From assembly GCA_903904835.1 (NCBI GenBank), contig CAIVEI010000189.1, positions 1-64,000 on the forward strand: 64,000 nt of DNA, in the 5' to 3' direction. Of this stretch, positions 40,949 to 62,488 are shown piece after piece. A program made the position numbers and the translations under genes. The notes beneath the pieces were generated by a model that worked only from the letters and a program-made list of their open reading frames with translations, was not told where the DNA came from and made no database searches. Within the stretch, counting starts at the first letter, position 1; every line of letters starts with the position of its first letter. This DNA comes from an uncultured Schlesneria sp. (GTDB lineage Bacteria > Planctomycetota > Planctomycetia > Planctomycetales > Planctomycetaceae).

Positions 40949-43900
40949 ATGACGAGAAAGAGCACGGAAAGTTTTCGATTTTCGAAGCCGATTCGGAAAC
41001 ACAACGGCATGAAACAATCATGTATCAACGTCATTGGTGCCGTTCCGCACGTTGGTGCGTTTTTGGTAACGCTTGTGTTTTCATCGACGTTCGTGTTTGC
41101 GAATGACGACATGCAAACCCACGACTTTGTCGAAGTCGTTCAACCACTGCTTCAATCGAAATGCATTTCCTGTCATGGTTTGGAGAAGCAGGAAGGTGGC
41201 TTACGACTTGATTCGTTGACGGCAGCAAAGCGAGGGGGCGATCGTGGCGCTGCGATCGTTCCTGGCGATCCAGGCAAAAGTCGTTTGATCGAAGCCGTTC
41301 GTTTCACGAATCCCGACTTGCAAATGCCACCAAAGTCCCGACTTTCCGACCGGGAAATCGAAGTTCTGGAGCACTGGGTCAAGGCGGGCGCAGTCTGGCC
41401 AGAGCTGGCGACTGTGCTGTTCGAAGACGAATCGCAGTTTGTATCAGCGCTGATTAATGGTAACGGGACGGCGCGATTGACCACAGACGATCCGTTTGCA
41501 GGCAAGCTGGCGCTGGGTATGACTCCTTTGCAGAGAGATCAAGTATCGATTCCTGGTTGGAACTATCGGATTCGAGAGAACCCCGAGTCGGGTGAATTTC
41601 GTTTTTTGCGACTCGCCTGGAAGAAGCGTGGTGCGGGAAGCGTCATGATTGAACTGGCTTCAAGTGGACAGTGGCCCGATCCACAAGTTGCCAAAGGACG
41701 GTATGTCGCAGGGCCGAATACGACTGGCTTGGCCGCGATTCAGGTTGCGGAACAAGCTCCCACAGAATGGACTGTCGTGACGTTTGATCTCTGGAAGGAC
41801 CTTGGCGATGTCATACTGACGGGAATTGCGCCGACATGCGATCAGGGCGAGGAGGCATTTTTTGATTCCATTATTCTCGGCCCGACAATCGAAAGCCTGG
41901 ATGCGTATCGACCTGGTTTCGGACTGCCGAGTGTTCTCGCACCCAAACCAGCGGGTCCCTGGATTGGCGATGCCTTGACCGACGCGAGCAACCCGATTCG
42001 CAAAATATTTCGAGGCGAAAGACTCGATCTCTGGTCTTTGAAAAAGCCTGTCATTGATGAAGTGACATACCAAGGTCATGAAGGTCTGACAACGGAGTCA
42101 GTGAACCACCTTTCTGCTCAAGTCATCGATCTATTGATCCGCAAACGATTGGCTGAAGCGGGGATCGCTCCTTCAGTTCCGGCAGACCGACGAACCTTGA
42201 TCCGCCGACTCAGTTTTGACCTGACCGGGTTGCCGCCGACGCCAGATGAGGTCCGCCATTTTATCCAGGATTCGTCGCCGAACGCGTACGAATCCCTGGT
42301 TGACCGGTTGTTGGATTCGCCACGTTATGGCGAGCGTTGGGCGCGACATTGGCTCGACGTCGTTCGCTATGCCGATACTGAAGGATTTGAGCGTGATGAA
42401 TTCCGGCCATTGGCCTGGCAATACCGGGATTACGTCATTCGTTCGTTCAACCTAGACAAGCCGTACGACCAGTTTATTCGAGAACAGCTTGCTGGGGATG
42501 AACTTGTTAATGCCCCACCGAAGAACGCTGACGAAGCCGACAAGTTGATTGCAACGGGTTTCTTGAGACTGGGCCAATGGGACAGTACCGCCCCGATTTT
42601 TCAGGAAGAAGTTCGGCATCGGGATCAGCAACTGGCGGATCTGGCAAACACAACGGGCTCCGCATTTCTTGGGTTAACGTTTTCTTGCTGCCAATGTCAT
42701 GATCACAAGTACGATCCTCTTTCTCAGGCCGATCATTTTCGTCTGCGAGCGTTCTTTGCGGGAGTAACTCCTCGGAACGATCTGGTCATTGAATTGGCCG
42801 ACGAACTTGAAGAGATCGCCAAACACAACGCGGTTGTTGATGACGAAGCGGCTCCTCTGAAGGAGGAACAGTCGAAACTGGACAAGGACAAAAAAGAGGA
42901 TCAGCCTCGATACGAGGAACTTGCTAAAACGATTGGGGAGATTGAAAAGAAAAAACGCTCGCCACGTATGACAATGGGAGCGACCGATTTCGGTGCAGAA
43001 GCTCCCGCGACGCATGTTTTTTATCAAGGTGACTTTTCGCAACCGCGTGAGGAAGTTCCACCGGGATACGTCTCGGTTCTTGACCCAAATCCGGCGGCGA
43101 TCGAACCGCCTCGAGCTGATACAACGGGCCGAAGGCTGGCGCTGGCCAAATGGATTGCCTCATCAGATAATCCGTGGACCGCTCGAACCCTGGTCAACCG
43201 CGTCTGGCAGCATCACTTTGGAGTCGGGCTTGTCGCCACTGCGAACGACTTTGGCTTTAGCGGAGCGAGGCCGACAAATCCTGAGTTACTCGATTGGCTG
43301 GCCGTCGCCTTTATCAACGATGGATGGTCGATCAAGAAATTGCATCGAACAATCGTCTGTTCGGCGACTTATCGGCAAGCGAGCGACGCAGTTGGTCTCG
43401 ATTCTGTGGCACAAATCAATGTCCACAGTCAGGAAAAAGATCCTGCAAATACGCTCCTTTGGCGACAGAACGTCGTTCGTCTTGATGCTGAGACGTTGCG
43501 AGACAGCTTACTTTCGGTATCAGGTGCACTGAAGACTGTCGACTCAGGCAAGCCGCGCTGGCCGCATGTGCCGATTGAACTGTTGCACGCCCAACCGGGA
43601 ATATTGGAGGCGAAAGACGGCGGTGACGGGGGACGGATGCAGGGCTGGTACGAAGACCCGGTTGAAGAGACTGATGTCCGAAGTGTGTTTCTCGTCCGCA
43701 AACGAGCCATGCCAATCCCGTTCCTGCAAGCGTTCGATCTCCCCGATACGACGGTCTCGTGTGCTCGCCGCGATACGACGGTCGTGGCTCCTCAAGCATT
43801 GATGCTGTTCAACAGTCCTGAATCGATTCGCTTTGCGTTGATCCTGGCCGAACGAGTGGCTGAAGAGGCTGGTCTCGATCCAGATAGACGAGTCGAAGCC

Positions 43901-44083
43901 TTGTTTCAGCGAGCGCTAAGCCGATCTCCCGAAGCGAAAGAAAAAGCGATTTGCCAGGATTTACTCCGTCGTCATACAGATCAACATCGAATGGATGGAG
44001 CCGCAGATAGAGCAGAATTGTTTGCACTGCGCGACCTGTGTCGAGCAGTACTCAATCTGAACGAATTCATGTATATCGACTAA
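40949..44083 (+). CDS. PSD1 / planctomycete cytochrome c domain protein (DUF1549, DUF1553)
   Basis: A 1044-residue exported protein. If translation starts at the ATG at 41009 a normal signal peptide (MKQSCINVIGAVPHVG…FVFA) results. Residues 55-130 are the PSCyt1 domain with one heme site (CISCHG). A beta-rich region follows. DUF1549 (about 395-600; RYGERWARHWLDVVRYADT start) and DUF1553 (about 740-1010; NRVWQHHFGVGLV) complete it. The gene is followed by a DUF1501 gene with 24 bp between them. The pair is abundant in planctomycetes, probably for extracellular polymer use, but its reaction is not established. Confidence 0.95.
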   Translation: MTRKSTESFRFSKPIRKHNGMKQSCINVIGAVPHVGAFLVTLVFSSTFVFANDDMQTHDFVEVVQPLLQSKCISCHGLEKQEGGLRLDSLTAAKRGGDRGAAIVPGDPGKSRLIEAVRFTNPDLQMPPKSRLSDREIEVLEHWVKAGAVWPELATVLFEDESQFVSALINGNGTARLTTDDPFAGKLALGMTPLQRDQVSIPGWNYRIRENPESGEFRFLRLAWKKRGAGSVMIELASSGQWPDPQVAKGRYVAGPNTTGLAAIQVAEQAPTEWTVVTFDLWKDLGDVILTGIAPTCDQGEEAFFDSIILGPTIESLDAYRPGFGLPSVLAPKPAGPWIGDALTDASNPIRKIFRGERLDLWSLKKPVIDEVTYQGHEGLTTESVNHLSAQVIDLLIRKRLAEAGIAPSVPADRRTLIRRLSFDLTGLPPTPDEVRHFIQDSSPNAYESLVDRLLDSPRYGERWARHWLDVVRYADTEGFERDEFRPLAWQYRDYVIRSFNLDKPYDQFIREQLAGDELVNAPPKNADEADKLIATGFLRLGQWDSTAPIFQEEVRHRDQQLADLANTTGSAFLGLTFSCCQCHDHKYDPLSQADHFRLRAFFAGVTPRNDLVIELADELEEIAKHNAVVDDEAAPLKEEQSKLDKDKKEDQPRYEELAKTIGEIEKKKRSPRMTMGATDFGAEAPATHVFYQGDFSQPREEVPPGYVSVLDPNPAAIEPPRADTTGRRLALAKWIASSDNPWTARTLVNRVWQHHFGVGLVATANDFGFSGARPTNPELLDWLAVAFINDGWSIKKLHRTIVCSATYRQASDAVGLDSVAQINVHSQEKDPANTLLWRQNVVRLDAETLRDSLLSVSGALKTVDSGKPRWPHVPIELLHAQPGILEAKDGGDGGRMQGWYEDPVEETDVRSVFLVRKRAMPIPFLQAFDLPDTTVSCARRDTTVVAPQALMLFNSPESIRFALILAERVAEEAGLDPDRRVEALFQRALSRSPEAKEKAICQDLLRRHTDQHRMDGAADRAELFALRDLCRAVLNLNEFMYID

Positions 44084-44107
44084 TTGGTCAGTCTTTCCGA
44101 GGCCATA

Positions 44108-45556
44108 ATGCCGTTTAACAACCTTAATCGTCGAGACTTTCTTCAGCGATCCGGAGGTGGCTTCGGCAGCGTCGTGTTGGCCGCGTTGCTGGCAGAAGAA
44201 GCTCGTGCGGCTTCACCGCAACAGACAACGATCGATCCGCTGAATCCTTTGGTCGAGCGCTTGTCGCACGTTGCCCCCAGGGCGAAACAGGTCATCTTTC
44301 TGTTTCAATACGGAGGTCCTTCGACGTTTGACCTGATCGATTACAAACCGGAATTGATCCGGCTGAATGGGCAACCCGTTCCAGAGTCGTTCAAAAATCA
44401 CAACGACAAGGTCGGTGGAGTCCTCAATCACTGCAAGGACGAGCTGATGTCCGGCCCATGGAATTGGGCTCAGCATGGTGAAAGCGGTTTGTGGTTTTCG
44501 GATTTGCTGCCCCATACCGCTCAGCATGCTGACGAGTTGTGCCTGGTTCGATCGATGTATAGCGAAAGTTCGAACCACGCCCCAGCGACCTATTTGATGA
44601 ATACGGGATCAATTTTAAGTGGCAAGCCCAGCATGGGATCATGGGTGACCTATGGCCTTGGTTCACTTAATCAGAACCTGCCCGGCTATGTCCTGCTGTA
44701 TAAAGTTGGGGGCTTGGGCGGGTCGGCCAATTGGAGTAACGGATTTCTGCCTGCGGCGTTTCAAGGGACACAGTTCCGTTACGAAGGTCCACCCGCACTG
44801 AATCTGGAACCTCCGGCGGATCTGGTTGGCGTTCAGCGTTCGACACTTGATGTCGTTCAGCAACTCAATCGAAAACATGCGGTAGAACGACCTGGTGTGC
44901 TCGATCTTTATGGTCGGATCGCCTCATACGAACTGGCCTATCGAATGCAGTCTGAAGCAATCGACGTCGGCGAATTGGCTCAAGAAACGCAGCAGACTCA
45001 CAACGCATACGGACTCAACGACGAGAATAAGAACAAGGCATTGTTCGGGAGAATGTGCCTGTTATTGCGTCGATTAATCGAGAAGGGCGTTCGCTTCGTA
45101 CAACTTTATAATGCCGTCGACAAACTGGGCTGGGACGGACATGATAATAACACCGATTACCACCAGCGAAATGCGGTTCAAACGGATCAACCGATTGCCG
45201 CCTTATTATCTGATCTGAAGCAACGAGGACTTTTAGACACGACGCTCGTCATTTGGGCGGGTGAATTCGGTCGTACGCCGATGATGCAGGGTAATAATGG
45301 GCGCAACCATAATCCCTATGGTTTCACGATCTGGATGGCAGGTGGTGGTGTGAAGTCGGGACAAGCCATTGGTGCGACTGACGAAATTGGTCTGCGGGCC
45401 GTCGACCAGCCCCAACCCGTCAAGAACCTTCATGCAACAATTCTGACTGCATTAGGACTACGTCCGGACGACCTTTTCTTTGAAACGAACGGTCGGCAAG
45501 AACGATTGACGGGTGTTGCCCAAAGCTGGAAGACGATTCCTGGTGTTTTTGGGTGA
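44108..45556 (+). CDS. DUF1501 protein, Tat-exported
   Basis: About 482 residues from the ATG at 44108, which places a twin-arginine signal at the very start (NRRDFLQRSGGGFG). The DUF1501 fold (alkaline phosphatase/sulfatase-like) has FQYGGPSTFDL, AGEFGRTP and GRDHNPYGF-like GRNHNPYGFT motifs. It pairs with the PSD1 gene in the usual planctomycete order. The frame opens earlier, at 44084, but this would move the Tat motif inward. Confidence 0.94.
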   Translation: MPFNNLNRRDFLQRSGGGFGSVVLAALLAEEARAASPQQTTIDPLNPLVERLSHVAPRAKQVIFLFQYGGPSTFDLIDYKPELIRLNGQPVPESFKNHNDKVGGVLNHCKDELMSGPWNWAQHGESGLWFSDLLPHTAQHADELCLVRSMYSESSNHAPATYLMNTGSILSGKPSMGSWVTYGLGSLNQNLPGYVLLYKVGGLGGSANWSNGFLPAAFQGTQFRYEGPPALNLEPPADLVGVQRSTLDVVQQLNRKHAVERPGVLDLYGRIASYELAYRMQSEAIDVGELAQETQQTHNAYGLNDENKNKALFGRMCLLLRRLIEKGVRFVQLYNAVDKLGWDGHDNNTDYHQRNAVQTDQPIAALLSDLKQRGLLDTTLVIWAGEFGRTPMMQGNNGRNHNPYGFTIWMAGGGVKSGQAIGATDEIGLRAVDQPQPVKNLHATILTALGLRPDDLFFETNGRQERLTGVAQSWKTIPGVFG

Positions 45557-45641: not shown

Positions 45642-47507
45642 TCACAGCCGCTTCTTTTCGGTTGATTCAGTTCCCTGGCCTTTTAATTGTTCTAACAGTT
45701 CGATGATTTCATCGTGAATTCTTTGTTTCTGACGAATGACCAGCGATTTCGATGTAGCGCGAATGACACCCATCGCTGAGTCGCCAAAAAAACCACCCCC
45801 TCCAGGTCCACCGCCGCCCATCGGTGGGCCACCGAGTGAATTTGATGTGGGATTTCCTTCCGCGACTTCTTTGGTTGAGGCTTCTTGATTGTCTGCTGGC
45901 CGATTCTTCGACGTCGGTGCCCCCGTTATTGGCGGCGTTTGGTTCGCCGGTACAAGACTTCGAAGGGAGGCCGGAAGATTCCACCCTTCTGGATCCACGG
46001 TTGCCAGAATGAGTTCCATCAATTCCTTCGGCGTATAGTCTGGTACAAGGCCCGTGTTGTAGACACGCGTTTCAAACGTTTGATCAGCTTTTTCGGTTGT
46101 CGTGATCATCAGCATGTCGTTCTTGATGACATAGTCGAGTTGCAATGGGTCGAGCAATAATCGTAACGTATTTTTAAGACTGTTTTCGGCAACAAAAAGA
46201 GTCACGTTTTGGTCAGTAGAGATGCCGGCATCGGCCAACGCGGGAGCATCGATCAAAATCTCAATTTTGTGAAGTTCTTCGAAGTAACGAAGTGCTTCAT
46301 TAAGCGGTTGGTCAGTGAAGGCTAATTCGGTATTTTCATGCAGTGCTGCTTCGATCCTTTCCACTAGAGGACTACGGGACTTAAAGTCCCATTTTGTGCG
46401 TGGGACTGTTTTTGACTTGGAATCATTACCGCCGATTTTCGTATCGGGTTCCAATTGGGCCAATTCACGCGTTGCGAGACGTTGTTCCAGTGGGGCGTGG
46501 GTATCAGCCTGGTCAACGTCAAAAGTTTCAACGGTTACTGAAGAGTCATCAGGGTCATTCGCCAAGGACCCTAAATCAAGAGTATTCCGTGCCGGACGGG
46601 CGGATGAACTCGTTGTCACGACGTTTCCGGCTTCGGCCATTGCGCCGGGAAGTCCAACCAACGCGTTGACTCCACCCAATCCCATGGCGAGTCCGCCGAG
46701 AGTCAGTCCAACTGCAACTACTGTTTTTGTCGCTGTCGTCATGGTGATGATTTCCTTTCCTGCGAGTTCGAGGACCCGATCAGAAATCAGATCGGGCGCT
46801 GGAATGTTTGATTGTGAACACCAGGCGATATTCGCCTGGATGGTGGATTCGATCAGCACTTCGTTGCCAGCAGCTTGCACCGTTTGTTGAGTCAACTGAA
46901 TTGCGGCCAAGGCCGTTCCCAGCGTCGTAATCCCTCGCTGTAAAAGCCGATTACGCAACTCATGTTTGCCTCGTTTCAACAATCCTTCCACTGTTCCGAC
47001 GGTCATTGATAATTCCGTCGCGATTTCGCTTGGTGTTTTACCCGCCAGATACCTGAGTACCAGCGGCTGCCGATATCGTTCCGGCAGTGCGTTCAATTCG
47101 ACATCAACCATTTGTTGATCGTGCCGATCTGCCAGCTTTGCAAATGTGTCGTCATCGGTCGATTTGTCATCCACAAGACATGTTTCCCTCCGGCGTTTCT
47201 TCTGTCGAGCGACCCTCAGCGACAATCGGTAAGCGACTCCGTACAACCAACTCGCAAGCGACTTTCGCTTTCTGACTCGGGTTGCGTCGCGAACAAGTAC
47301 GAGGAATGTTGCTTGAAAGACATCGTCAATATCATGTGCGTCATGCAGAACCCGTCGGCAGACACCAAGCACAACAGGACTGTGCCGACGAACCAACTCC
47401 GCGAATGCTGATTGATCGCGAGCAACTATAAATCGCTCGATCAACTCGGCATCGCCCGGCGCTGGCGAATCAATAACCGAAACGGCGTTTAGTACAAGGG
47501 CACTCAT
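45642..47507 (-). CDS. ECF sigma factor with membrane and STN-like extracytoplasmic domain
   Basis: About 621 residues from the ATG at 47507; an earlier in-frame start at 47540 is possible. Sigma region 2 (DIDDVFQATFLVLVR) and region 4 (TPSEIATELSMTVGTVEGLLKRGK) fill the first 190 residues. A membrane helix follows near 259-286. Beyond it lies an STN/secretin-N-like domain (FTDQPLNEALRYFEEL … LRLLLDPLQLDYVIKNDMLMITT). The C-terminus is Gly/Pro rich then basic. It appears to be a membrane-tethered one-protein sigma system, a planctomycete design. No separate anti-sigma gene is visible. Confidence 0.9.
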   Translation of the reverse strand: MSALVLNAVSVIDSPAPGDAELIERFIVARDQSAFAELVRRHSPVVLGVCRRVLHDAHDIDDVFQATFLVLVRDATRVRKRKSLASWLYGVAYRLSLRVARQKKRRRETCLVDDKSTDDDTFAKLADRHDQQMVDVELNALPERYRQPLVLRYLAGKTPSEIATELSMTVGTVEGLLKRGKHELRNRLLQRGITTLGTALAAIQLTQQTVQAAGNEVLIESTIQANIAWCSQSNIPAPDLISDRVLELAGKEIITMTTATKTVVAVGLTLGGLAMGLGGVNALVGLPGAMAEAGNVVTTSSSARPARNTLDLGSLANDPDDSSVTVETFDVDQADTHAPLEQRLATRELAQLEPDTKIGGNDSKSKTVPRTKWDFKSRSPLVERIEAALHENTELAFTDQPLNEALRYFEELHKIEILIDAPALADAGISTDQNVTLFVAENSLKNTLRLLLDPLQLDYVIKNDMLMITTTEKADQTFETRVYNTGLVPDYTPKELMELILATVDPEGWNLPASLRSLVPANQTPPITGAPTSKNRPADNQEASTKEVAEGNPTSNSLGGPPMGGGGPGGGGFFGDSAMGVIRATSKSLVIRQKQRIHDEIIELLEQLKGQGTESTEKKRL

Positions 47508-47633
47508 TTGTCTGACAGTATAGTGCCCAGTCCCGGCCATTTCCGGCGCAAAATTTTCTGATTTTGTCTTGAATCAGCCGACTTTGATCGATCGTGGCGG
47601 GTCGCAATAGACATCAGCAGGACTTGATTGTCG

Positions 47634-51285: not shown

Positions 51286-52173
51286 TCATGTGGCGTCAAT
51301 CGGCACTGGTGCGACATCAACTGACACAGTCAACACGTGCGAGCCCCCGCCGGTCAGGACTCCCTGAATTGGACACACATCGCCGTAGTCGCGGCCCCAG
51401 CCGATGGTAATGTGTCGCTCCTGCGGAATCACGTTGTTTGTCGGGTCGAGATCGATCCATCCATGGTTCGGGCAAAAGACTGCCAGCCACGCGTGCGAAG
51501 CGTCCGCTCCGACGAGTCGTGGCTTACCTGGTGGTGGAGCAGTCACGAGATAACCGCTGACGTAGCGAGCTGCCAGACCCAGAGTTCGCAAGGCAGTAAT
51601 CTGAAGATGGGCGAAGTCCTGGCAGACACCACGTCGCTTTTCGAGCACTTCCTTCGTGGGAGTGCTGATGCTCGTCGCGGCGGGAGCATATTCAAACTCG
51701 TGATAAATCCTCGACGTTAGATCGAGTGCGGCTTCCAGAATGGGGCGGCCAGGAGTGAAACTTGGTAGTGCGTAATCGCGTGCTTCATTCAGATAACGAA
51801 CATAGGGAGACTCAAATCGAAATTGGGACATCATTCGCATCTCAGCAGTTTCGGCTGTGGCGAGTTGGTCTCGAACGGTTTCCCAAGGGGACGTTTCAAA
51901 CGGCAAAGGGAGTTCTCGCTTCATGACAGTGATTCGGCTTCGAGCGGTCACTCGCAGTTCCTGGTGTGGTTCTTCCAGCGAGAAATAGCGTACTTCGTTG
52001 CCAAACGTATCGATCCAGGAACGCTGAAGCATTGGCTCTGGAGAGACTTCTAACAGGAATCCGGCCGTCGTTTGAAACGGAGTCTGGCGTGGCGTCAAAT
52101 GAACATCGTTTTGACAGATTGACACTGGGTCAGTGTACGAATACGTCGTTGTATGTCGAACGGTATAGTGCAT
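51286..52173 (-). CDS. Transglutaminase-like protein (short)
   Basis: A 295-residue member of the bacterial transglutaminase-like family (COG1305-type). A beta N-terminal domain (HYTVRHTTTYSY) is followed by the papain-like core with C184 (RRGVCQDFAH), H227 (DASHAWL) and D243 (DLDPTN), a full triad. It starts 79 bp after the fusion ATP-grasp gene. It resembles the N-terminal part of the larger transglutaminase-DUF2126 protein in the same cluster, so the two are paralogs. It may hydrolyse or transfer isopeptide-type bonds; substrate unknown. Confidence 0.92.
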   Translation of the reverse strand: MHYTVRHTTTYSYTDPVSICQNDVHLTPRQTPFQTTAGFLLEVSPEPMLQRSWIDTFGNEVRYFSLEEPHQELRVTARSRITVMKRELPLPFETSPWETVRDQLATAETAEMRMMSQFRFESPYVRYLNEARDYALPSFTPGRPILEAALDLTSRIYHEFEYAPAATSISTPTKEVLEKRRGVCQDFAHLQITALRTLGLAARYVSGYLVTAPPPGKPRLVGADASHAWLAVFCPNHGWIDLDPTNNVIPQERHITIGWGRDYGDVCPIQGVLTGGGSHVLTVSVDVAPVPIDAT

Positions 52174-52252: not shown

Positions 52253-54826
52253 TCACGCTCGTCTTGGAATCTGAAGCTGAACCTCAAGTTGTCTCGAATC
52301 AACCGTGTGCGTGAGATACGTGTGCGTAATGCTATCGGAGAGTGCACGAAGATCGGAAGTCAGCAGGGCCAAAAACTTGTCCAACTGTCGGCGATCACCG
52401 GCACCATTTACTGCGCAAAAGGACTCCACATCAGCCAAACGGAGCGAGGCTTGAGCCGACAAAACAAGCTTTTGTTCCGAGGTGCGGACCATTTCCGATT
52501 CGTCTCGCGCAAGACTTCGGACATGCTCGGACAACGCCATCAGTTGAAAGCCAACGGCCCGCGGGTTCGATTCATCCGCTAATACGAGATCGAGCACCGG
52601 TGCCAATTGAAGCGTCGTCAGATAGCGGTAACGGTAAGTCATCGAACTATCCGCGATTTCGAGCATCGCTTCGAGTCGCGGAAGAACGTCCGCTTGACCA
52701 TCAACCAGCAAGCCGCGAATGACCCTGAGCGTTTGCAATGCACGTTCAATTCGCCGTCCGATATCAAGAAACCGCCAACCAGGGCCGCGAGTCATGCTGT
52801 CGTTACAAAGGCCACTAAACGCCGAAAGCGAAGTCAGCAGTTGGTTTAAGGGGGCTAATGCTTCAGCAAGGTCCGCCGATGTCCTGGGGGCAGTGACCTG
52901 GCGTGATTGCGGAAATTTCAATTGGTTGATAATTCGCCAGCCATCGACAGAAATACGATCTCGGACGATCGAAGCCGTCCGGTGAGTCGTCTCAATTGCG
53001 TCGAATAAACCTGCCTTACGATAAGGATCGTGAAGAAACGACCAGACCGATTCGACCAGTGCTTGCCAAAGCCCGTTTTCATCCGTATTCGCAGCCAATG
53101 GTGATTCGCCCGGGTCGTCGATCGCCAGGACCAGTAAATGAAGATCTGACAATCGAGCCGGTTGTAATTCGCTCGTCATGCGAGCTACAACGCTGCGAGC
53201 GTGACGTACCTTGGCCTCCGTCCTTTCAATCGAGCGCCCCAGCCAGAACAAATGGTCTGCCGCCCGGCTTGGTAAGTCGTTCGCGCTCCGGCGAAGTTCC
53301 AATGCGGTTTGTTTGGGACGTAGCAATGACACCGGTTCAACGGGGCCATCGGCAAGAATCCAGACGTCCTTACTTCGTTGCCCGGCCGCCATGGATTCAG
53401 TCAGTGTTTCTGACCGAGTCGCAACTCGTGACAAGCCTCCAGGCATGACCTGATAATCACCGTCGGTTGCCACGGCGAAGGCTCGTAACGTCACGTGCCA
53501 TGGCTGCATTCGATCGTTGCACCACACAGGGGCCGTCGATCCCACAATCGGTTCCTGTGCCACAAAATGACTGGGCCTTGCACGCATTTCTGAAATCAGT
53601 CTGGCTCGCTCGTCATACGCCAGATTGCTTCCAACATAGACCTTTGTGTTGTGGTGGCGGAAAGCGTGGCGAACGACCAGGCGATCAAGATTGGCTTCAA
53701 CATACTTCAGGTCTTCATTTCGTCCGCACCACCATGTCGGGACGGAAGGGAGCTTGAGGTCTTCTCCCAGCAGAAATCGACAGGCCGCAGGAAGAAACGC
53801 TTGAAGTAACGGGGCTTCGAGAAAGCCGCTGCCAAGCGCATTGGCAACCACCACCTGACCGTCGCGCACGACCTGGATCAGTCCCGGAATTCCTGCTCGG
53901 GAATCAGGACGCAATTCGAGCGGATCGCAGCGTCCATCAGCCATTCGGCGGAAGATGACATCGACTTCAAGTAACCCGCCAAGTGTCTTCAAATAGACTC
54001 CGTCACCACGGACGGTGAGGTCGCCCCCTTCGACCAGCGTATAGCCAAGATACCGTGCGAGATAAACATCTTCGAAGTATCGCGAACTTTTGGGGCCGGG
54101 CGAAAGCAGAACAACACGGGGGTTCTCGCGATGGCTGCGAGACAAGCTGGCCAGCGTGTTCTGTAGTGCAATAAAAAATGACGCAAGTCGGACAACGTTT
54201 AAACTTTGAAATTCTTCCGGCAAAGTGCGGGAAATAACAATCCGGTTCTCAACGGCGTATCCTGCTCCAGACGGGCCCTGCGAGCGATCACCAAGTGCAA
54301 TCCATTGGCCGCGTGCGTCTCGCGCCAACTGTGCTGCATACCAATGAACGAAAATTCCTCCGGGGGGGGTAATCCCCACACACGGCAAGAGGTAATTGGG
54401 GTGTTCGAACAAGCTGTTGGGAGGCAGAATCCCCGACCGCATTAACTCTTGTGAGCCATAAACATCGGCAAGAATCCGGTTCGACAACCGGGCACGCTGT
54501 TTAAGAGCATCCGCCAACACTTTCCATTCTTCGATCGGGATCATTAGCGGGATGGGGTCGAGTTCCCATGGTCGCTCCAAATCCTTGGCGGCCCCGTAAA
54601 CGTTGTAGGTGACGCCATTTTCGCGAAGTAGATGGCGAGCTTGATCGCTACGTCGACCGAGGCCTGCTGATCCTTCATCATTCAGGCTTTGGGCTAATCG
54701 CGACCACGCGGGGCGTACAAAACCGCCCGATCCCAGCATTTCATCAAAGAGCTGATTCGGTGGCTGATACTGTGACACGATATCGCCGGCCGGATGAGCA
54801 CTCACCGTACCGGTGCTGTCATTCAT
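52253..54826 (-). CDS. Circularly permuted ATP-grasp / alpha-E fusion, probably inactive ATP-grasp
   Basis: An 857-residue fusion. Residues 20-480 match the circularly permuted ATP-grasp family, aligned without gaps in most of its length to the separate copy at 59847-61340. Residues about 515-857 match alpha-E. Key residues differ from that copy: at the metal site LEDN becomes LGDR (G179, R181) and the K-P…SGGYG loop becomes R386 and HHNTKVY. So ligase activity looks lost. It is followed by the short transglutaminase gene and preceded by the DUF2126 fusion gene on the same strand. Confidence 0.92.
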   Translation of the reverse strand: MNDSTGTVSAHPAGDIVSQYQPPNQLFDEMLGSGGFVRPAWSRLAQSLNDEGSAGLGRRSDQARHLLRENGVTYNVYGAAKDLERPWELDPIPLMIPIEEWKVLADALKQRARLSNRILADVYGSQELMRSGILPPNSLFEHPNYLLPCVGITPPGGIFVHWYAAQLARDARGQWIALGDRSQGPSGAGYAVENRIVISRTLPEEFQSLNVVRLASFFIALQNTLASLSRSHRENPRVVLLSPGPKSSRYFEDVYLARYLGYTLVEGGDLTVRGDGVYLKTLGGLLEVDVIFRRMADGRCDPLELRPDSRAGIPGLIQVVRDGQVVVANALGSGFLEAPLLQAFLPAACRFLLGEDLKLPSVPTWWCGRNEDLKYVEANLDRLVVRHAFRHHNTKVYVGSNLAYDERARLISEMRARPSHFVAQEPIVGSTAPVWCNDRMQPWHVTLRAFAVATDGDYQVMPGGLSRVATRSETLTESMAAGQRSKDVWILADGPVEPVSLLRPKQTALELRRSANDLPSRAADHLFWLGRSIERTEAKVRHARSVVARMTSELQPARLSDLHLLVLAIDDPGESPLAANTDENGLWQALVESVWSFLHDPYRKAGLFDAIETTHRTASIVRDRISVDGWRIINQLKFPQSRQVTAPRTSADLAEALAPLNQLLTSLSAFSGLCNDSMTRGPGWRFLDIGRRIERALQTLRVIRGLLVDGQADVLPRLEAMLEIADSSMTYRYRYLTTLQLAPVLDLVLADESNPRAVGFQLMALSEHVRSLARDESEMVRTSEQKLVLSAQASLRLADVESFCAVNGAGDRRQLDKFLALLTSDLRALSDSITHTYLTHTVDSRQLEVQLQIPRRA

Positions 54827-54947: not shown

Positions 54948-57900
54948 TCAAGCCCTTCTCATATCCAACGTGAATGGGTAGTCAACATTCTTTTCGTTCT
55001 CTGGGATCATCTGAATTCCAGGAGTGTGACCGATTTGGAAGAATCTTGCCACCCGGCGACTTTCTGCTTCGTATGCATTTACCGGGAAGGTTGCGTAGTG
55101 CCGGCCTCCTGGATGAGAGACATGCCAAGTGCAGCCTCCGATCGATTTCTTGTTCCACATATCGAGGAGATCGAACACGAGCGGCGAATGAACTCCAATC
55201 GTCGGGTGCAGGCACGACGGTGGCTGCCAGGCTCGGAAACGAACCCCGGCCACAAATTCGCCTTTTGTTCCCGTTGGATGAAGCGGCACGCGTCGCCCGT
55301 TACATGTAATGACGAATCGCGGATCTGTCAGTCCGCGGACTTTGACCTGAACTCGTTCAACCGACGAATCGACATAACGAGCGGCTCCCGTACCGCCAAA
55401 CTCTTCACCAAGTACGTGCCATGGTTCAATCGCCTGACGCAATTCAATATGGACTCCGGAAATCGTCAGCTCACCAATTAATGGAAATTTGAACTCGACG
55501 TGTGGAGCGAACCATTTGCTCTCAAATCGGAATCCCGATTCATTCAAGTCGTCCAGGACTTCGTTAAAGTCTTGTTCAACGAAGTGAGGCAACATAAATC
55601 GATCGTGCAATGTCGTTCCCCAACGGACAAGCGGCTCGCGGTAGGGTTTATTCCAGAAACGTGCGATGAGCGATCGAACCAGGAGCTGTTGCGTCAAGCT
55701 CATTCGTTCGTGTGGCGGCATCTCAAAGCCACGCATCTCGACCAAGCCCAATCGACCGCTCGAACTGTCCGGTGAGAACAATTTGTCGATACAAAACTCG
55801 GCTCGATGCGTATTTCCGGTCAAATCCGTCAGCAAGTGACGAAACACCCGGTCGACCAGCCACGGTGGGCACGGACCGTTTTCCGGCAGTTGCGAACAGG
55901 CAATTTCCATCTCGTACAGGTTTTCGTGTCGAGCTTCATCCAATCGCGGTGCCTGGCTCGTCGGACCGATAAATAGCCCCGAGAAAAGATAAGACAAGGA
56001 CGGACGGTTGTTCCAATACGAAACCAAACTTCGCAGAAGATCGGGGCGTCGCAGGAATGGGCTTTGAGCCGGAGACGGCCCTCCCATGACGATATGGTTA
56101 CCCCCACCAGTTCCTGTGTGCCGGCCGTCAAGCATGAACTTTTCGGTACTGAGCCGTGACAGATGAGCCTCTTCGTAGAGGACGGTCGTGTTACGAACCA
56201 GTTCTTTCCAAGTGCGCGACGGCTGCAAGTTGACTTCGATCACACCAGGATCAGGAGTCACTTTGAAATGGTCGACTCGGTAGTCATACGGCGGCGGATA
56301 ACCTTCGATCCGAACCGGCATCGATAATTCATCGGCAGTCGCTTCGATTGCCGAAACCAGTTCGAGATATTGTTCGATTCGATCCACGGGTGGCATAAAG
56401 ATATGCAACACGCCACCTCGGGGTTCAACGCACAGTGCTGTTCGAACGATTGGTTCGAAATTTGACGACAGGCCCGGACTATCGGCACTTTCGAGGTCAG
56501 AACCATGAACGCCATTTGATGAGCCATTATCAGCCCATGTCCCGTGGCCGGAACTTCCGTTATATAACGGTCGTCGCGACGTTGATTCGCCGTTCCCCAG
56601 TCGTGCTGTTGCTTCGTCGGCGGCACCTGCTAACACAGGTTCCAGATCATCGAGTGAACGTTTTACGTAGTCGAGAATGCGACCCCGAGTTTGAAGCACA
56701 CGTGGCACAGCCAAATCGGGTTTCAATGACTTAATATCGAAACCGTTCGGATGCGTCTGGTGGGCAAGCTGCCCGTTCAGCGATGGACGAGACAATTCGC
56801 CACGCTCGGCCATTGGGTCAAGTTCGGCAACCTCAGGCCGATCCTCAGGACGCAGCCAAGGTAACGAATCGAGCGGCAGCCGATATCCCATCGGTGAATC
56901 ACCAGGGACAAGAAACATTCGCCCTTGTCGCAAATACCAGGGGCCACTGGTCCACCGAGTCAGCGCATTAGATGCATAGTTCGGCATGATCGGCAATACA
57001 AAGCCGACGGTGCTGGCCAACCCTTGTTCGAAGACACGAGCCAGTCTCGCCCGATCTTCCTCGTTGTCGAGCTTGGAATCGAACGGATCGACATTGACTG
57101 GTAGCTTTCGCGCCTTCCAAAGGTAATACCACGTATCCTCGTATCCGGGCACGACGTGTTCGGATTGGACCTGCAACTGATCCGCCAGCATCGTAATAAA
57201 TTCTCGAGCTTCCTTCTCACCGTGGCCATAATCGCGATCATCGTCGGCAATCAGATCGGGACGCGTCCATACGGGCTCTGTGTCTTTCCTCCAGTAGCAG
57301 CCAAGAGCCCAGCGTGGCAGTGATTCGCCGGGATACCATTTCCCCTGACCGAAGTGAAGCAGCGGTCCATTCGCAAATCGATTTGCCAACCGTCGAAATA
57401 GTGTTCCGCCCAGCTTCCGCTTGGTGTCCCCCAGCGCGGCGGTATTCCACTCAGGTTCGTCGCGATGATCGATGGATACGAATGTTGGTTCACCTCCCAT
57501 CGTGAACGAGCGGGGGCCGATCGCCAGTTCGCGATCAACGTAATCACCCAATTGCTCGATGTCTGCCCACTGCTCTTCAGTGTAGGGCTTCGTCACACGC
57601 GGATCTTCGTGGACGCGTGTGATTGTCATTTCAAAGCCGAATTCGACCTCGCATTTGTCGACGCCGCCAGAGATCGGTGAGGCCGATTGAGGATCAGGGG
57701 TCGCAGCCAGCGGAATATGACCTTCGCCTGCGAGTAGACCTGACGTTGGGTCGAGCCCCACCCAACCCGCACCCGGCAAAAATACTTCCGCCCATGCGTG
57801 CAAGTCCGTGAAATCCGTCGCGGCACCGGAAGGTCCGTCAAGCGACGCAACGTCAGGTTTCAGCTGCAGCAAGTATCCTGAGACGAACCGCGATGCGAGT

Positions 57901-58484
57901 CCAACATGTCGCAACAATTGAACCAGTAGCCATGCTGAATCACGGCAAGAACCGGTTTTCTTTGTCAGCGTTTCTTCGCATGTCTGAACACCGGGTTCCA
58001 TACGAATGACGTAGCCAACGGCCTTTTGAACATATTGATTAAAATCGACAATACAGTCATTCGTCGTGACGGAATGCCGAGGTGCTCTCTCAACAAAGGA
58101 TTGCATCTCAGTTGAAAGAGGTTCCGTCACGAGATACGGCTGCAATTGCGTCTTAAGAGACGGAGCATACGAGAATGGGAAATTCGTTGCTTCAGGTTCA
58201 AGAAAGAAATCGAACGGATTGATGACCGTCATGTCGGCGACCAGATCAACCTCGACCGAGAGTTGCCTGGTTTTTTCAGGAAAGACGAGACGAGCCAGGA
58301 AATTGCCGTAAGGATCTTGTTGCCAGTTCAAAAACTGCTTATCAGGCAGTACCTTCAGCGAGTAGCTGAGGATCGGAGTTCGACAATGTGGCGCAGGACG
58401 AAGTCGAATGACTTGCGGCGACAGATTGACGAGCCGGTCGTATGAATAAGTGGTCTTATGATGTAGTGCAACTCGAATGGTCAT
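54948..58484 (-). CDS. Transglutaminase-DUF2126 fusion protein
   Basis: About 1178 residues from the ATG at 58484 (MTIRVALHHKTTYSYD); a frame from 58529 is longer. The transglutaminase-like domain (1-270) has C180 (GSCRDSAW), H229 (DLHAWAE) and D245 (GLDPTSG). The rest (about 310-1178) is DUF2126, with FTMGGEPTFVS near 342, WYPGESLPRWAL, GGGNHIVMGGPSP and PPHERMSLTQ. DUF2126 has no settled activity. It falls between the alpha-E gene and the ATP-grasp fusion gene, each a known partner in this family of clusters. Confidence 0.94.
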   Translation of the reverse strand: MTIRVALHHKTTYSYDRLVNLSPQVIRLRPAPHCRTPILSYSLKVLPDKQFLNWQQDPYGNFLARLVFPEKTRQLSVEVDLVADMTVINPFDFFLEPEATNFPFSYAPSLKTQLQPYLVTEPLSTEMQSFVERAPRHSVTTNDCIVDFNQYVQKAVGYVIRMEPGVQTCEETLTKKTGSCRDSAWLLVQLLRHVGLASRFVSGYLLQLKPDVASLDGPSGAATDFTDLHAWAEVFLPGAGWVGLDPTSGLLAGEGHIPLAATPDPQSASPISGGVDKCEVEFGFEMTITRVHEDPRVTKPYTEEQWADIEQLGDYVDRELAIGPRSFTMGGEPTFVSIDHRDEPEWNTAALGDTKRKLGGTLFRRLANRFANGPLLHFGQGKWYPGESLPRWALGCYWRKDTEPVWTRPDLIADDDRDYGHGEKEAREFITMLADQLQVQSEHVVPGYEDTWYYLWKARKLPVNVDPFDSKLDNEEDRARLARVFEQGLASTVGFVLPIMPNYASNALTRWTSGPWYLRQGRMFLVPGDSPMGYRLPLDSLPWLRPEDRPEVAELDPMAERGELSRPSLNGQLAHQTHPNGFDIKSLKPDLAVPRVLQTRGRILDYVKRSLDDLEPVLAGAADEATARLGNGESTSRRPLYNGSSGHGTWADNGSSNGVHGSDLESADSPGLSSNFEPIVRTALCVEPRGGVLHIFMPPVDRIEQYLELVSAIEATADELSMPVRIEGYPPPYDYRVDHFKVTPDPGVIEVNLQPSRTWKELVRNTTVLYEEAHLSRLSTEKFMLDGRHTGTGGGNHIVMGGPSPAQSPFLRRPDLLRSLVSYWNNRPSLSYLFSGLFIGPTSQAPRLDEARHENLYEMEIACSQLPENGPCPPWLVDRVFRHLLTDLTGNTHRAEFCIDKLFSPDSSSGRLGLVEMRGFEMPPHERMSLTQQLLVRSLIARFWNKPYREPLVRWGTTLHDRFMLPHFVEQDFNEVLDDLNESGFRFESKWFAPHVEFKFPLIGELTISGVHIELRQAIEPWHVLGEEFGGTGAARYVDSSVERVQVKVRGLTDPRFVITCNGRRVPLHPTGTKGEFVAGVRFRAWQPPSCLHPTIGVHSPLVFDLLDMWNKKSIGGCTWHVSHPGGRHYATFPVNAYEAESRRVARFFQIGHTPGIQMIPENEKNVDYPFTLDMRRA

Positions 58485-58570
58485 GATCGGTTTTCTTGTG
58501 TGTAAATCTGGGCCTTGTTTTAAACACAACCCACCGGGAGTGTCTCTGTGTTCAACGATTCAGGGTTTGA

Positions 58571-59617
58571 TCATCCTTGAGACTGGCTGCTGGAATCTTG
58601 TGTTTGTCCGCCGCTTTCGGGCAATGAAGTACTTTTTCCGTATGATTTCCTCGTGACTTTCGTAGGCTTGATGATCGGTTCGACGGCAAAGAATGTATCG
58701 GAAATCGCGTTTCCGACTTCGTTCATCTTTCCTTGGAATTGATCAATGAACTCGTGCAATCCCGTTGCGAAGATCTCGTCAATATTGGTGTAGTCGAGTT
58801 CTGAGCGTAATCGGCCAAGATACTGTTCGGCTCGATTTTCAAAATTCCCCCGTATTCCACCCGTAATCGTCAGGAGCGAATGCTCGGCTCGGCTGACACA
58901 GAAGCGAACGGCACGCGGAAATTCACGGTCCAGTAACAGGAATTCGGCCACTTGCTGTGGCGTCATTCGACCATGCGCTTTGCGATACATTTCGAGAGCA
59001 CTTGCGGACTTTAAGAGCGCAGACCACTGGTTAGTATCGAGTTGCGTCCCAACGTCTGAAACCTGAGGCAGCAACAGATAATACTTGACGTCGAGAATTC
59101 GAGATGTCTTATCCGCTCGCTCAATCAATTGCCCCATACGATGAAAATGCCAGGCTTCGTTGTGCGAAAGCGTTGATTGAACCGCACCGTCTAAAGTGTA
59201 GGCAGATAACTTGATTTGAGTGAAGAAATCAAAGGGAGATCCCAGGACCTGTGGTTGCGATGCGGTCTTAACCAGCAGGAAGAATTTGTTCAATTCTTCC
59301 CACATCGGCGAACTGATCATGTCACGAACGGTTCTCGCATTCTCTCGTGCCGTTCGTAAACAGCAAAGGATCGAGTTGGGATTCTGAGTATCAAACGTCA
59401 AAAATTGAATGACGTTCTGCTGCGTTCCTTCAGGGTAACGCTTCTGAAAATCGTCATGGTCACCCGTGGTGTAAATCAGTGGATCCCAATGTCGTTCCAT
59501 TTCAGGACCGACATCCAGAGCCAGATTCAAATTGACGTCGATGAACCGGGCCACATTTTCGGCTCGTTCCACGTATCGGCTCATCCAGTAAATCGAGTCG
59601 GCAACGCGGCTCAGCAT
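58571..59617 (-). CDS. Alpha-E domain protein
   Basis: A 348-residue, mostly helical protein of the alpha-E (DUF403/COG2307) family: MLSRVADSIYWMSRYVERAENVARFIDVN-type start, SILCCLRTARENARTVRD, WHFHRMGQLIERADKTSRILDVKYYLLLP (shorter pieces identify it). It encodes the stand-alone partner of the ATP-grasp protein at 59847-61340 and has a paralog fused in the 857-residue protein. Biochemical role is unknown. The last 30 residues are Ser/Gln rich. Confidence 0.94.
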   Translation of the reverse strand: MLSRVADSIYWMSRYVERAENVARFIDVNLNLALDVGPEMERHWDPLIYTTGDHDDFQKRYPEGTQQNVIQFLTFDTQNPNSILCCLRTARENARTVRDMISSPMWEELNKFFLLVKTASQPQVLGSPFDFFTQIKLSAYTLDGAVQSTLSHNEAWHFHRMGQLIERADKTSRILDVKYYLLLPQVSDVGTQLDTNQWSALLKSASALEMYRKAHGRMTPQQVAEFLLLDREFPRAVRFCVSRAEHSLLTITGGIRGNFENRAEQYLGRLRSELDYTNIDEIFATGLHEFIDQFQGKMNEVGNAISDTFFAVEPIIKPTKVTRKSYGKSTSLPESGGQTQDSSSQSQG

Positions 59618-59846: not shown

Positions 59847-61340
59847 TCAAACACGCGGCGTTCCGTTTTTCAAGACCCAAGTATCCTTGCTTCCTCCTCC
59901 TTGAGATGAATTCACAACCAGCGATCCCTTCACAAGAGCGACTCGCGTCAACCCCCCTGGAAGTATGTAAATGTCTTCCCCGTAAAGGATGTATGGTCGA
60001 AGGTCCACATGACGGCCCTCCAGCCGATCACCAACAATCGTGGGGACTCGCGACAACGACAATGTCGGCTGTGCAACGTAGTTTCTTGGGTTGGAAGTGA
60101 TTAATTCTTTGTACTTATCAAGCTGCTCGCGAGTCGCTCGTGGCCCTACCAGAATGCCGTATCCCCCCGATTCGTTGGCAGGCTTGATCACCAGCTCGGC
60201 AATGTGCTCAAGAACATACTGTCGCTGCTCGTCGTTCGCACAAAGATACGTTGGGACGTTCGGCAGAATCATCTCTTCGCCGAGATAGTACTTAATCATC
60301 TGGGGAACATATGCGTAAACAGCCTTGTCGTCAGCGATACCAGTTCCGGGTGCATTGGCGAGCGCGATTCGGCCTGCTCGATAAACATCCATGAGTCCCG
60401 GGACTCCGAGCGTGGAATCGGCACGGAAAGTCAGCGGATCGAGGAATTCATCGTCGATTCGACGGTAAATGACGTCAACACGTTCCAGCCCCCTCGTTGT
60501 TCGCATGTGAACAAAACCGTTTGTCACGACAAGATCCGAGCCTTGGACAAGCTCCACACCCATCTGTTGGGCCAGGAAACAGTGTTCGAAATAGGCTGAG
60601 TTATAAATGCCGGGCGTCATCACCACGACCGTCGGTTCCTCGGTCGTCGGAGGTGCAATGTGTTGCAGCATTTTCAACAATTGCTCAGGATAATCCTCGA
60701 CAGGCATCACCGACAGTCCGTTGAACAACTGCGGGAATGTTCGCTTCATGACCTCGCGATTTTCGAGGACGTACGAGACACCCGACGGACACCGCAGATT
60801 GTCTTCCAGGACATAAACGGTGCCATCCGCATCACGAACAAGATCCGTTCCCGTGATGTGACACCAGATGCCGCCCGGGGGATTGAGGCCGACGCACTGT
60901 TTCAGAAAATTCCGGCTCGAACGAACCATGTACTCCGGAAAAATTCCCTCTTTGACAATATTTTGATCGTGATAAATATCATCGATGAAAAGGTTCAGGG
61001 CTTTGATCCGCTGTTTCAATCCGGATTCAATATAACGCCACTCGGCGCTCTCGATGATTCGCGGAATCAGATCAAATGGCCAGATTTTTTCCGTGCCTGC
61101 CTCGTGCCCATACACGTTAAACGTGATTCCCATATTCAGCAGTGCCTGGTCCGCGACACGCTGCCGACGAATCAGTTCCCCATCGGTTAAGCCTTTTAGC
61201 CGTGATGCCAGCAACTCACCTCTTGGACGTGGTTGCCCACCTTCCAGGAACATCTCGTCGTAAAAACCCACAGTCTCATAATTGTGAAACGCCAAATCTG
61301 CGGGCATTGATTGATTTGAGCTATCGGTGGCAGCGAGCAT
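59847..61340 (-). CDS. Circularly permuted ATP-grasp protein (stand-alone, active-site intact)
   Basis: A 497-residue protein of the circularly permuted type 2 ATP-grasp family (COG2308). It keeps the metal-site motif [18 protein letters not shown] (E179, N181), the [13 protein letters not shown] strand, the [11 protein letters not shown] stretch and the nucleotide loop [14 protein letters not shown] (K386, 391-395). Such enzymes are predicted amide ligases making peptide-like products. First gene of the cluster, transcribed from a 224-bp gap shared with no other gene start. The C-terminus is short (…[14 protein letters not shown]). Confidence 0.93.
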
Positions 61341-61564: not shown

Positions 61565-62488
61565 TCATTGCGATTTGGCGGTCAAGTCGATCCCCATATC
61601 CAGAAAGAGCATTTTCATGTCTTCCCAAACATCCTTTTTGGCTGCGGGATTACGCATCAGGTATGCAGGGTGATACGTGCAAAGGACTTTTGCTCGCCCG
61701 TAAGTAAAAAATTTCCGGCGCAATTTGCCAATCGTTTCCGTTGAGCCCAGCAGATTCTGCGCGGCACAAGCACCCCAGCAGACGATGTATTCTGGATTGA
61801 CATGTGCCAATTGTCCATCGAGATACTCGCGGCAATTTGATGCCTCTTCCGGGGCAGGAAGTCGGTTACCCGGCGGCCGGCATCGGAGAACGTTACAGAT
61901 ATAGATGTCCTCCCGCCGCAAACGACAGGCTTTGATAATATCGTTCAAGAGCTGGCCTGCTCGTCCCACAAACGGTTCGCCTTGCACATCTTCGTCCGCA
62001 CCTGGTGCTTCGCCGACAAAGACGATCCTGGCCTGTGGGTTACCTACGCCGAATACGGTCTGCGTTCTTGTGGAAGCGAGTTCCTGGCATCGCGTGCAGC
62101 TTTTGACCCGTTCTGCCAGCGCGGCCAATCCTGAAATACGGTCAGCGAGTGGAAGATCTAAGGGTTGAAATTGAATCGGGACTAACGGGGGAGGAGCGCT
62201 CTTTTTCTTGGCCAATTGGGAACTCTCTGCTTCGACCAGTGGATGGGAATGGGGATGACTGGTCGCTAAAACTGTCGAACCAGATAACGGGGAAAACTTT
62301 TCAGGCGGGCTGTCCGTAACTCGCTGAGGCACCGTTGTATGTGCCTGTAATTGTGGGGTTTGCGCTGGTTTTCGAGGCGAAATCGGATCGATTCGCCTCC
62401 AGTGAGTCACACCAGCTCGACGAAGTCCTTCCAACTGTTGAATGACCGCGAGTCGGATCTGATCGCTGCTCAAATTTGTTTCATCCAT
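61565..62488 (-). CDS. Family-4 uracil-DNA glycosylase
   Basis: A 307-residue Fe-S uracil-DNA glycosylase. Catalytic motif GEAPGADED (159-167) and HPAYL (273-277) flank a PFVGRAG loop. Four cysteines suit a 4Fe-4S cluster: C131, C134, C219 and C237. The first about 105 residues are a basic, Pro/Ser-rich extension of unknown use that is not part of the catalytic fold. It removes uracil from DNA in base excision repair. It stands apart from the ATP-grasp cluster by 224 bp. Confidence 0.92.

Follow-up and report, generated by a model that had tools for sequence, protein, structure and literature searches.

The window analysed here, a 64,000-nucleotide stretch of DNA from an uncultured Schlesneria sp., belongs to a genome of 8.18 Mb that is 99.97% complete. 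Five genes on its minus strand form a cluster encoding an ATP-grasp protein, an Alpha-E protein, a transglutaminase-DUF2126 protein, an ATP-grasp/Alpha-E fusion and a transglutaminase-like protein (Table 1). Both ATP-grasp reading frames lie where the initial annotation had placed them, and the live ATP-grasp gene is followed by the separate Alpha-E gene, an arrangement that mirrors the domain order of the fusion. A profile search of the whole genome returned no further PF14403 or PF04168 copies outside the cluster. The DUF2126 protein is predicted to be a circularly permuted glutamine-synthetase-like amidoligase; its reading frame opens with a TTG codon and a short, unlikely leader, and translation more probably begins at the ATG of MTIRVALHHKTTYSYDR (residue 16). 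Promoter and terminator scans yielded no more than shuffled sequence did, comparison with viral contigs gave no match, and PADLOC and NCBIfam held no family covering any cluster protein. Elsewhere, the window encodes a sigma-70-type protein (45642-47540; regions 2 and 4) whose C-terminal extension exceeds 400 residues, adjoined by two large plus-strand genes of planctomycete appearance (40949-44083 and 44084-45556), and a uracil-DNA glycosylase family protein (61565-62488) with an N-terminal extension of about 145 residues.

Table 1. Genes, domains and active-site positions of the cluster in window coordinates.
Feature	Position	Strand	Basis
857-aa fusion of a circularly permuted ATP-grasp (catalytically degenerate, N-terminal) and Alpha-E (C-terminal)	52253..54826	-	Pfam, AlphaFold model
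Fusion, pseudo-ATP-grasp domain (residues 93-469)	53420..54550	-	PF14403, 468.5 bits
Fusion, Alpha-E domain (residues 518-838)	52313..53275	-	PF04168, 216.3 bits; ER motifs E534-R535 and E694-R695 both kept
Fusion, former Mg-ligand loop: G179-D180-R181 replacing E179-D180-N181	54284..54292	-	Pairwise and family alignment
Fusion, former phosphate-lysine site: E337-A338-P339 replacing D337-D338-K339	53810..53818	-	Family alignment
Fusion, R386 replacing K386 (not family-wide)	53669..53671	-	Pairwise and family alignment
Fusion, former glycine-rich loop: HHNTK (391-395) replacing SGGYG	53642..53656	-	Pairwise and family alignment
497-aa separate circularly permuted ATP-grasp, active site intact	59847..61340	-	PF14403, 572.9 bits; 582 bits vs 3n6x
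Separate copy, Mg-ligand loop E179-D180-N181 intact	60798..60806	-	Pairwise and family alignment
Separate copy, K339 intact	60324..60326	-	Family alignment
Separate copy, K386 intact	60183..60185	-	Pairwise and family alignment
Separate copy, glycine-rich loop SGGYG (391-395) intact	60156..60170	-	Pairwise and family alignment
348-aa separate Alpha-E protein, downstream of the live ATP-grasp gene	58571..59617	-	PF04168, 349.4 bits
1193-aa transglutaminase-like + DUF2126 protein, directly upstream of the fusion	54948..58529	-	PF08379, PF01841, PF09899 (1326 bits)
295-aa transglutaminase-like protein, directly downstream of the fusion	51286..52173	-	PF08379, PF01841

The fusion matches the PF14403 profile over its full length (positions 1-374 of 374) and above the curated cut-off. 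Its AlphaFold model (pLDDT 80) superposes best with 3n6x (Z 43.9, 446 residues, rmsd 3.1) and also with glutathionylspermidine synthetase, GspS (Z about 20), so that by both profile and circularly permuted fold the protein is a member of the CP_ATPgrasp_2 family. The C-terminal half belongs to the Alpha-E family (PF04168) by profile match and ER motif; its model (pLDDT 86.8) matched general helical bundles only, with a best Z of 10.3 that is below the trust level for helical proteins.

Roles for the active-site residues were drawn from trypanothione synthetase, in which a molecular-dynamics study found Asp330, Glu344 and Asn346 to hold two Mg ions, Lys513 and Lys548 to contact the ATP phosphates and Arg328 to contact the gamma-phosphate (PMC3581523). 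E. coli GspS has the same pattern, with motifs ITGRMD318...E330-Y-N332...S337, GNK498AILP and VK533PIAGRCG, and the 497-aa protein carries ITGTD166...E179-D-N181, DDK339AVYAYVP and IK386PANESGGYG. The equivalence between the family and GspS was set by motif and spacing, K339 corresponding to GspS K498. When the E. coli GspS sequence was aligned with the family profile by hhalign, the probability was 0.2%; the fold match of the fusion model to GspS and 3n6x supports the putative equivalence.

BLASTP aligned residues 26-494 of the fusion with residues 26-493 of the separate protein (469 positions, 36% identity), and, as the initial annotation had held, the two proteins share their residue numbering up to a single one-residue gap near residue 456. 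Its contrast of LGDR in the fusion with LEDN in the separate copy was borne out by this alignment, as was that of HHNTK with SGGYG at 391-395. Further losses in the window fusion affect D166 (Q), D338 (A), K339 (P), D446 (T) and the N477-G483 stretch (NSSQGGG). Q166, G179 and R181 thus stand in place of the Mg ligands D166, E179 and N181, and P339, R386 and HHNTK in place of the phosphate lysines and glycine-rich loop of an active ligase. The exchange of K386 for R386, also claimed at the outset, holds for this pair of proteins but is not a family trait, with K386 kept in 51 of 95 fused proteins. Because D166 is likewise kept in 79 of the 95, the window fusion is, on the aligned sequences, more degraded than the family average at positions 166 and 386.

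To place the window copy in its family, fused proteins were gathered from 149 genomes of its phylum and from a named genome collection. They occur in Planctomycetota, Acidobacteriota, Verrucomicrobiota, Kiritimatiellota, Pseudomonadota, Myxococcota or other deltaproteobacteria, Nitrospirota, Poribacteria, a leptospire and Binatia, and the closest to the window's own comes from another uncultured Schlesneria (82% identity). In the multiple alignment, loss of E179, N181, K339 and the SGGYG loop proved common to the family. None of the 95 fused proteins keeps E179, N181, D338, K339, Y394, D446 or N477, none retains the SGGYG loop, and in none do two or more of E179, N181, K339, K386 and SGGYG occur together. 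Among the 41 separate copies, E179, N181 and K339 are present in every one, D338, Y394, D446 and N477 each in all or all but one, and SGGYG is essentially invariant. An independent set of 39 fused proteins, identified in 392 Planctomycetota genomes through the Pfam model only and chosen for the length of their reading frames, gave the same result, with E179, N181, K339 and SGGYG each kept in 0 of 39. Since the first three are absent from all 95 fused and present in all 41 separate proteins, and the independent set agrees, we judge the loss of the ATP site to be far beyond chance. Sixteen further fused proteins, including sequences from Tsukamurella (Actinomycetota), Sinorhizobium and Halomonas, lack N181 and K339 throughout and keep E179 once. 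The sole fused protein that keeps E179 (L178, genome G456) reads EDRAQAPSG and lacks N181, K339 and K386. Taken together, the sets come to about 149 fused proteins spread over some ten phyla, at least one locus being common to two sets.

The extended reading frames at two live copies (L124, L119) come from read-through ahead of the true start codon and are not fusions, and a seemingly split fusion in Desulfamplus (L085) is a sequence broken by runs of N. Two fusion-bearing metagenome contigs (L074, L089) are labelled Klebsiella pneumoniae and Akkermansia muciniphila; the labels are doubtful and the contigs may be misbinned. A fused-type protein also lies on a 90-kb Enterobacter roggenkampii plasmid (NZ_CP116251.1, 15942-18380; 38% identity over 96% of the query), and the cluster can therefore be plasmid-borne in Enterobacteriaceae. 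Azospirillum brasilense, a laboratory species, also has the cluster with its pair of live and fused copies.

The history of the fusion was traced in two trees, one of 147 ATP-grasp domains and one of 151 Alpha-E domains. In many phyla the separate genes for ATP-grasp and Alpha-E are neighbours, arranged and oriented like the halves of the fusion, and in each tree the fused and separate domains form the two sides of one branch. Under a mixture model in IQ-TREE this branch received support of 100/100 for ATP-grasp and 100/99 for Alpha-E, and the fused or separate state changed once in all 200 bootstrap trees. The trees are unrooted, and the ancestral side was judged from the intact active site of the separate copies. 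The simplest history would be a single duplication of an adjacent ligase/Alpha-E pair, followed by fusion and then by loss of the ATP site. When 175 ATP-grasp and 174 Alpha-E domains were scored against fused-type and separate-type profiles, neither a live fused nor a dead unfused copy appeared, so that fusion may have come before or after loss of the ATP site.

Of 392 Planctomycetota genomes, 80 had a match, with a single separate-type copy in 22, both fusion and separate copy in about 58 and the fusion alone in none. The other copy was present in 48 of the 49 genomes with named fused loci, and one of 299 Pseudomonadota genomes (G346) had the fusion alone. The only exceptions to a live partner are thus G346 and a metagenome-assembled verrucomicrobial genome (G161), in either of which a gene may have been missed. 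Live copies without a fusion are common. By its distribution, the fused protein depends on a live copy in the genome, almost never occurring without one.

Its neighbours are conserved as well. In 59 other loci the gene immediately upstream of the fusion encodes a transglutaminase-DUF2126 protein, and in 75 the one immediately downstream encodes a transglutaminase-like protein. Among Pseudomonadota, DUF2126 is present in 79 of 89 genomes with at least two ATP-grasp copies and in 5 of the 67 single-copy genomes (Fisher p about 1e-26, kinship among genomes being ignored). The ten of the 89 without DUF2126 all carry the fusion, so the link is strong but not strict and DUF2126 cannot be the sole partner. 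Anbu is absent from the window genome, whose only PF00227 protein is an HslV beside HslU (G000:C68:128507-129016, L176).

Selection has acted unevenly along the fused protein. The former ATP-contact positions are highly variable in the family (E179 2.3 bits, K339 2.2, SGGYG 3.0-3.6, Q480 2.9, against a median of 1.7 bits for the ATP-grasp domain), whereas R293, R294, D301, N329, R448 and D486 are nearly invariant and W366 (100%), G368 (99%), E304 (96%) and E337 (86%) are newly fixed. The ATP site has therefore been released from selection and the rest of the protein has not. Because the former contacts are among the most variable positions of the family, it is unlikely, as far as the alignment can tell, that other residues fill the site. 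Compared with its Schlesneria orthologue, the whole fusion has a dN of 0.13, similar to that of neighbouring genes, with synonymous sites saturated, and it is under purifying selection. In its Alpha-E half both ER motifs are intact, along with many of the residues that are invariant in separate Alpha-E proteins. The family-wide loss, the purifying selection and the near-constant presence of a live copy in the same genome together give strong sequence-level support to the initial proposal of a conserved but dead ligase fused to Alpha-E.

By known chemistry, then, the fusion should be incapable of ATP-driven carboxylate ligation, and a scaffold or regulator role would fit and is our preferred reading. 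We lean towards the view that it is a non-catalytic pseudo-ligase partner subunit of a predicted peptide-modification system, derived from an early duplicated and fused pair. An adjacent live ATP-grasp/Alpha-E pair would have been duplicated once, early in bacterial evolution, and the duplicate, fused into one chain, would have lost ATP and Mg handling and yet been retained. The live ATP-grasp would activate a carboxylate with ATP and then ligate it, a reaction established for the fold. The pseudo-ATP-grasp half may hold the peptide or carboxylate substrate through its fold and conserved substrate-side residues, and may dock onto the live ATP-grasp, the adjacent transglutaminase-DUF2126 amidoligase or both; the Alpha-E half would play for it the part that the separate Alpha-E plays for the live ligase. 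The absence of ATP contacts from the sequence, the single-branch origin, the purifying selection, the dependence on a live copy and the conserved neighbours are observed here, and the docking, substrate-holding and regulatory steps are what we infer from them. In Yersinia bercovieri, Anbu formed no stable complex with the other proteins of its operon in pull-downs (PMC6376114), and stable complexes in such systems are therefore not a given.

Where the Mg ligands were, the fused family has a signature of its own, D-R-x-Q-x-P-S-G-A-G, with D180 in 97%, R181 in 93% (88 of 95), Q183 in 83% and G189 in 98% of its members. We see a minor chance that this pan-bacterial pseudo-ATP-grasp family either serves as an activator of the live ligase or uses the motif for a new, ATP-independent reaction at the old substrate site, with the DUF2126 branch dependent on it. 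In six of the ten fused proteins from Pseudomonadota genomes without DUF2126 (L179-L182, L185, L186), the D-R-x-Q-x-P-S-G motif is degraded, for example to DHLRAPAG, a hint that it may serve the DUF2126 branch. A general tie between loss of R181 and loss of DUF2126, suggestive at six of ten, was set aside, as Planctomycetota without R181 retain DUF2126.

The same signature invites the thought of a repurposed enzyme, with a new ATP-independent activity such as hydrolysis or transfer at the old substrate site, built from the newly fixed D180, R181 and Q183 and the retained R293, R294, D301 and R448. Fixation of a new motif at the Mg-ligand site and the near-invariance of several new residues speak for it, but the newly conserved residues include no obvious nucleophile or acid-base pair, and R181 is missing from 7 of 95 fused proteins and from 6 of the 10 genomes without DUF2126; we consider such an enzyme unlikely. 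That the dead domain is a structural tether, only keeping a functional Alpha-E folded or localised, is improbable: the Alpha-E half does retain its ER motifs and most invariant residues, but the pseudo-ATP-grasp half, with many invariant residues of its own, is equally constrained (dN 0.125 versus 0.119), and no fused-type Alpha-E without a pseudo-ATP-grasp was seen among the 174 domains scored. A nucleotide sensor, binding ATP or another nucleotide without hydrolysis, is quite improbable. Weak nucleotide binding is conceivable, since K386 is kept in half of the fused family, D166 persists in most members and the fold is close to 3n6x; against this, the family has lost K339, E179, N181, the glycine loop and NSSQGGG, with drift at all of these positions, and the window copy lacks K386 and D166 too. 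Decay or an assembly artefact in the window genome is practically excluded by a sister genome (L035) with the same substitutions and by the roughly 149 proteins that share the pattern.

The partner-subunit reading we favour bears on a widespread cluster that holds two ligase copies, only one of them an enzyme by known chemistry. Recognising the fused copy as dead yet constrained tells experimenters which copy to assay and suggests a pseudo-ligase partner. The gene families and the predicted system were already known, and the dead fused family appears to be unannotated: in public plasmid records, fused and separate proteins share the product name circularly permuted type 2 ATP-grasp protein. 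No description of a dead fused ATP-grasp was found among the papers searched; earlier notice, for instance in the 2009 prediction paper, is possible.

The closest relatives in sequence and fold are the CP_ATPgrasp type 2 proteins (PF14403), represented by 3n6x of Methylobacillus flagellatus, from which the fusion differs in lacking all ATP/Mg contact motifs and in being joined to Alpha-E. GspS and trypanothione synthetase (PMC3581523) share the fold but are active, with their own Mg ligands and phosphate lysines, which the fusion lacks. At the level of gene content, Iyer et al. 2009, as relayed in PMC5666114 and PMC6376114, predicted an ATP-grasp/Alpha-E/transglutaminase/Anbu system that would produce peptide tags or attach them, and a separate-type ATP-grasp from the Anbu operon of Y. 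bercovieri releases phosphate from ATP (PMC6376114). The window cluster sets the same gene families side by side, but lacks Anbu and adds DUF2126 and a second, dead ATP-grasp fused to Alpha-E. When nitrogen is limiting, NtrC turns on a related Burkholderia cenocepacia cluster that includes DUF404/407, DUF403 and transglutaminase-like genes (PMC5491218). Among ATP-grasp-related proteins, TTLL12 (tubulin tyrosine ligase-like 12) is one in which ligase activity is reported not to have been found (PMC3520985); unlike the fusion it is eukaryotic, of another ATP-grasp branch and joined to a SET-like domain. A model for how the fusion may work is the AdoMetDC prozyme of Trypanosoma brucei, a dead paralogue that is kept and activates the live one (PMC5201418). 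Its fold is unrelated, and the activation demonstrated there is what we would infer for the fusion.
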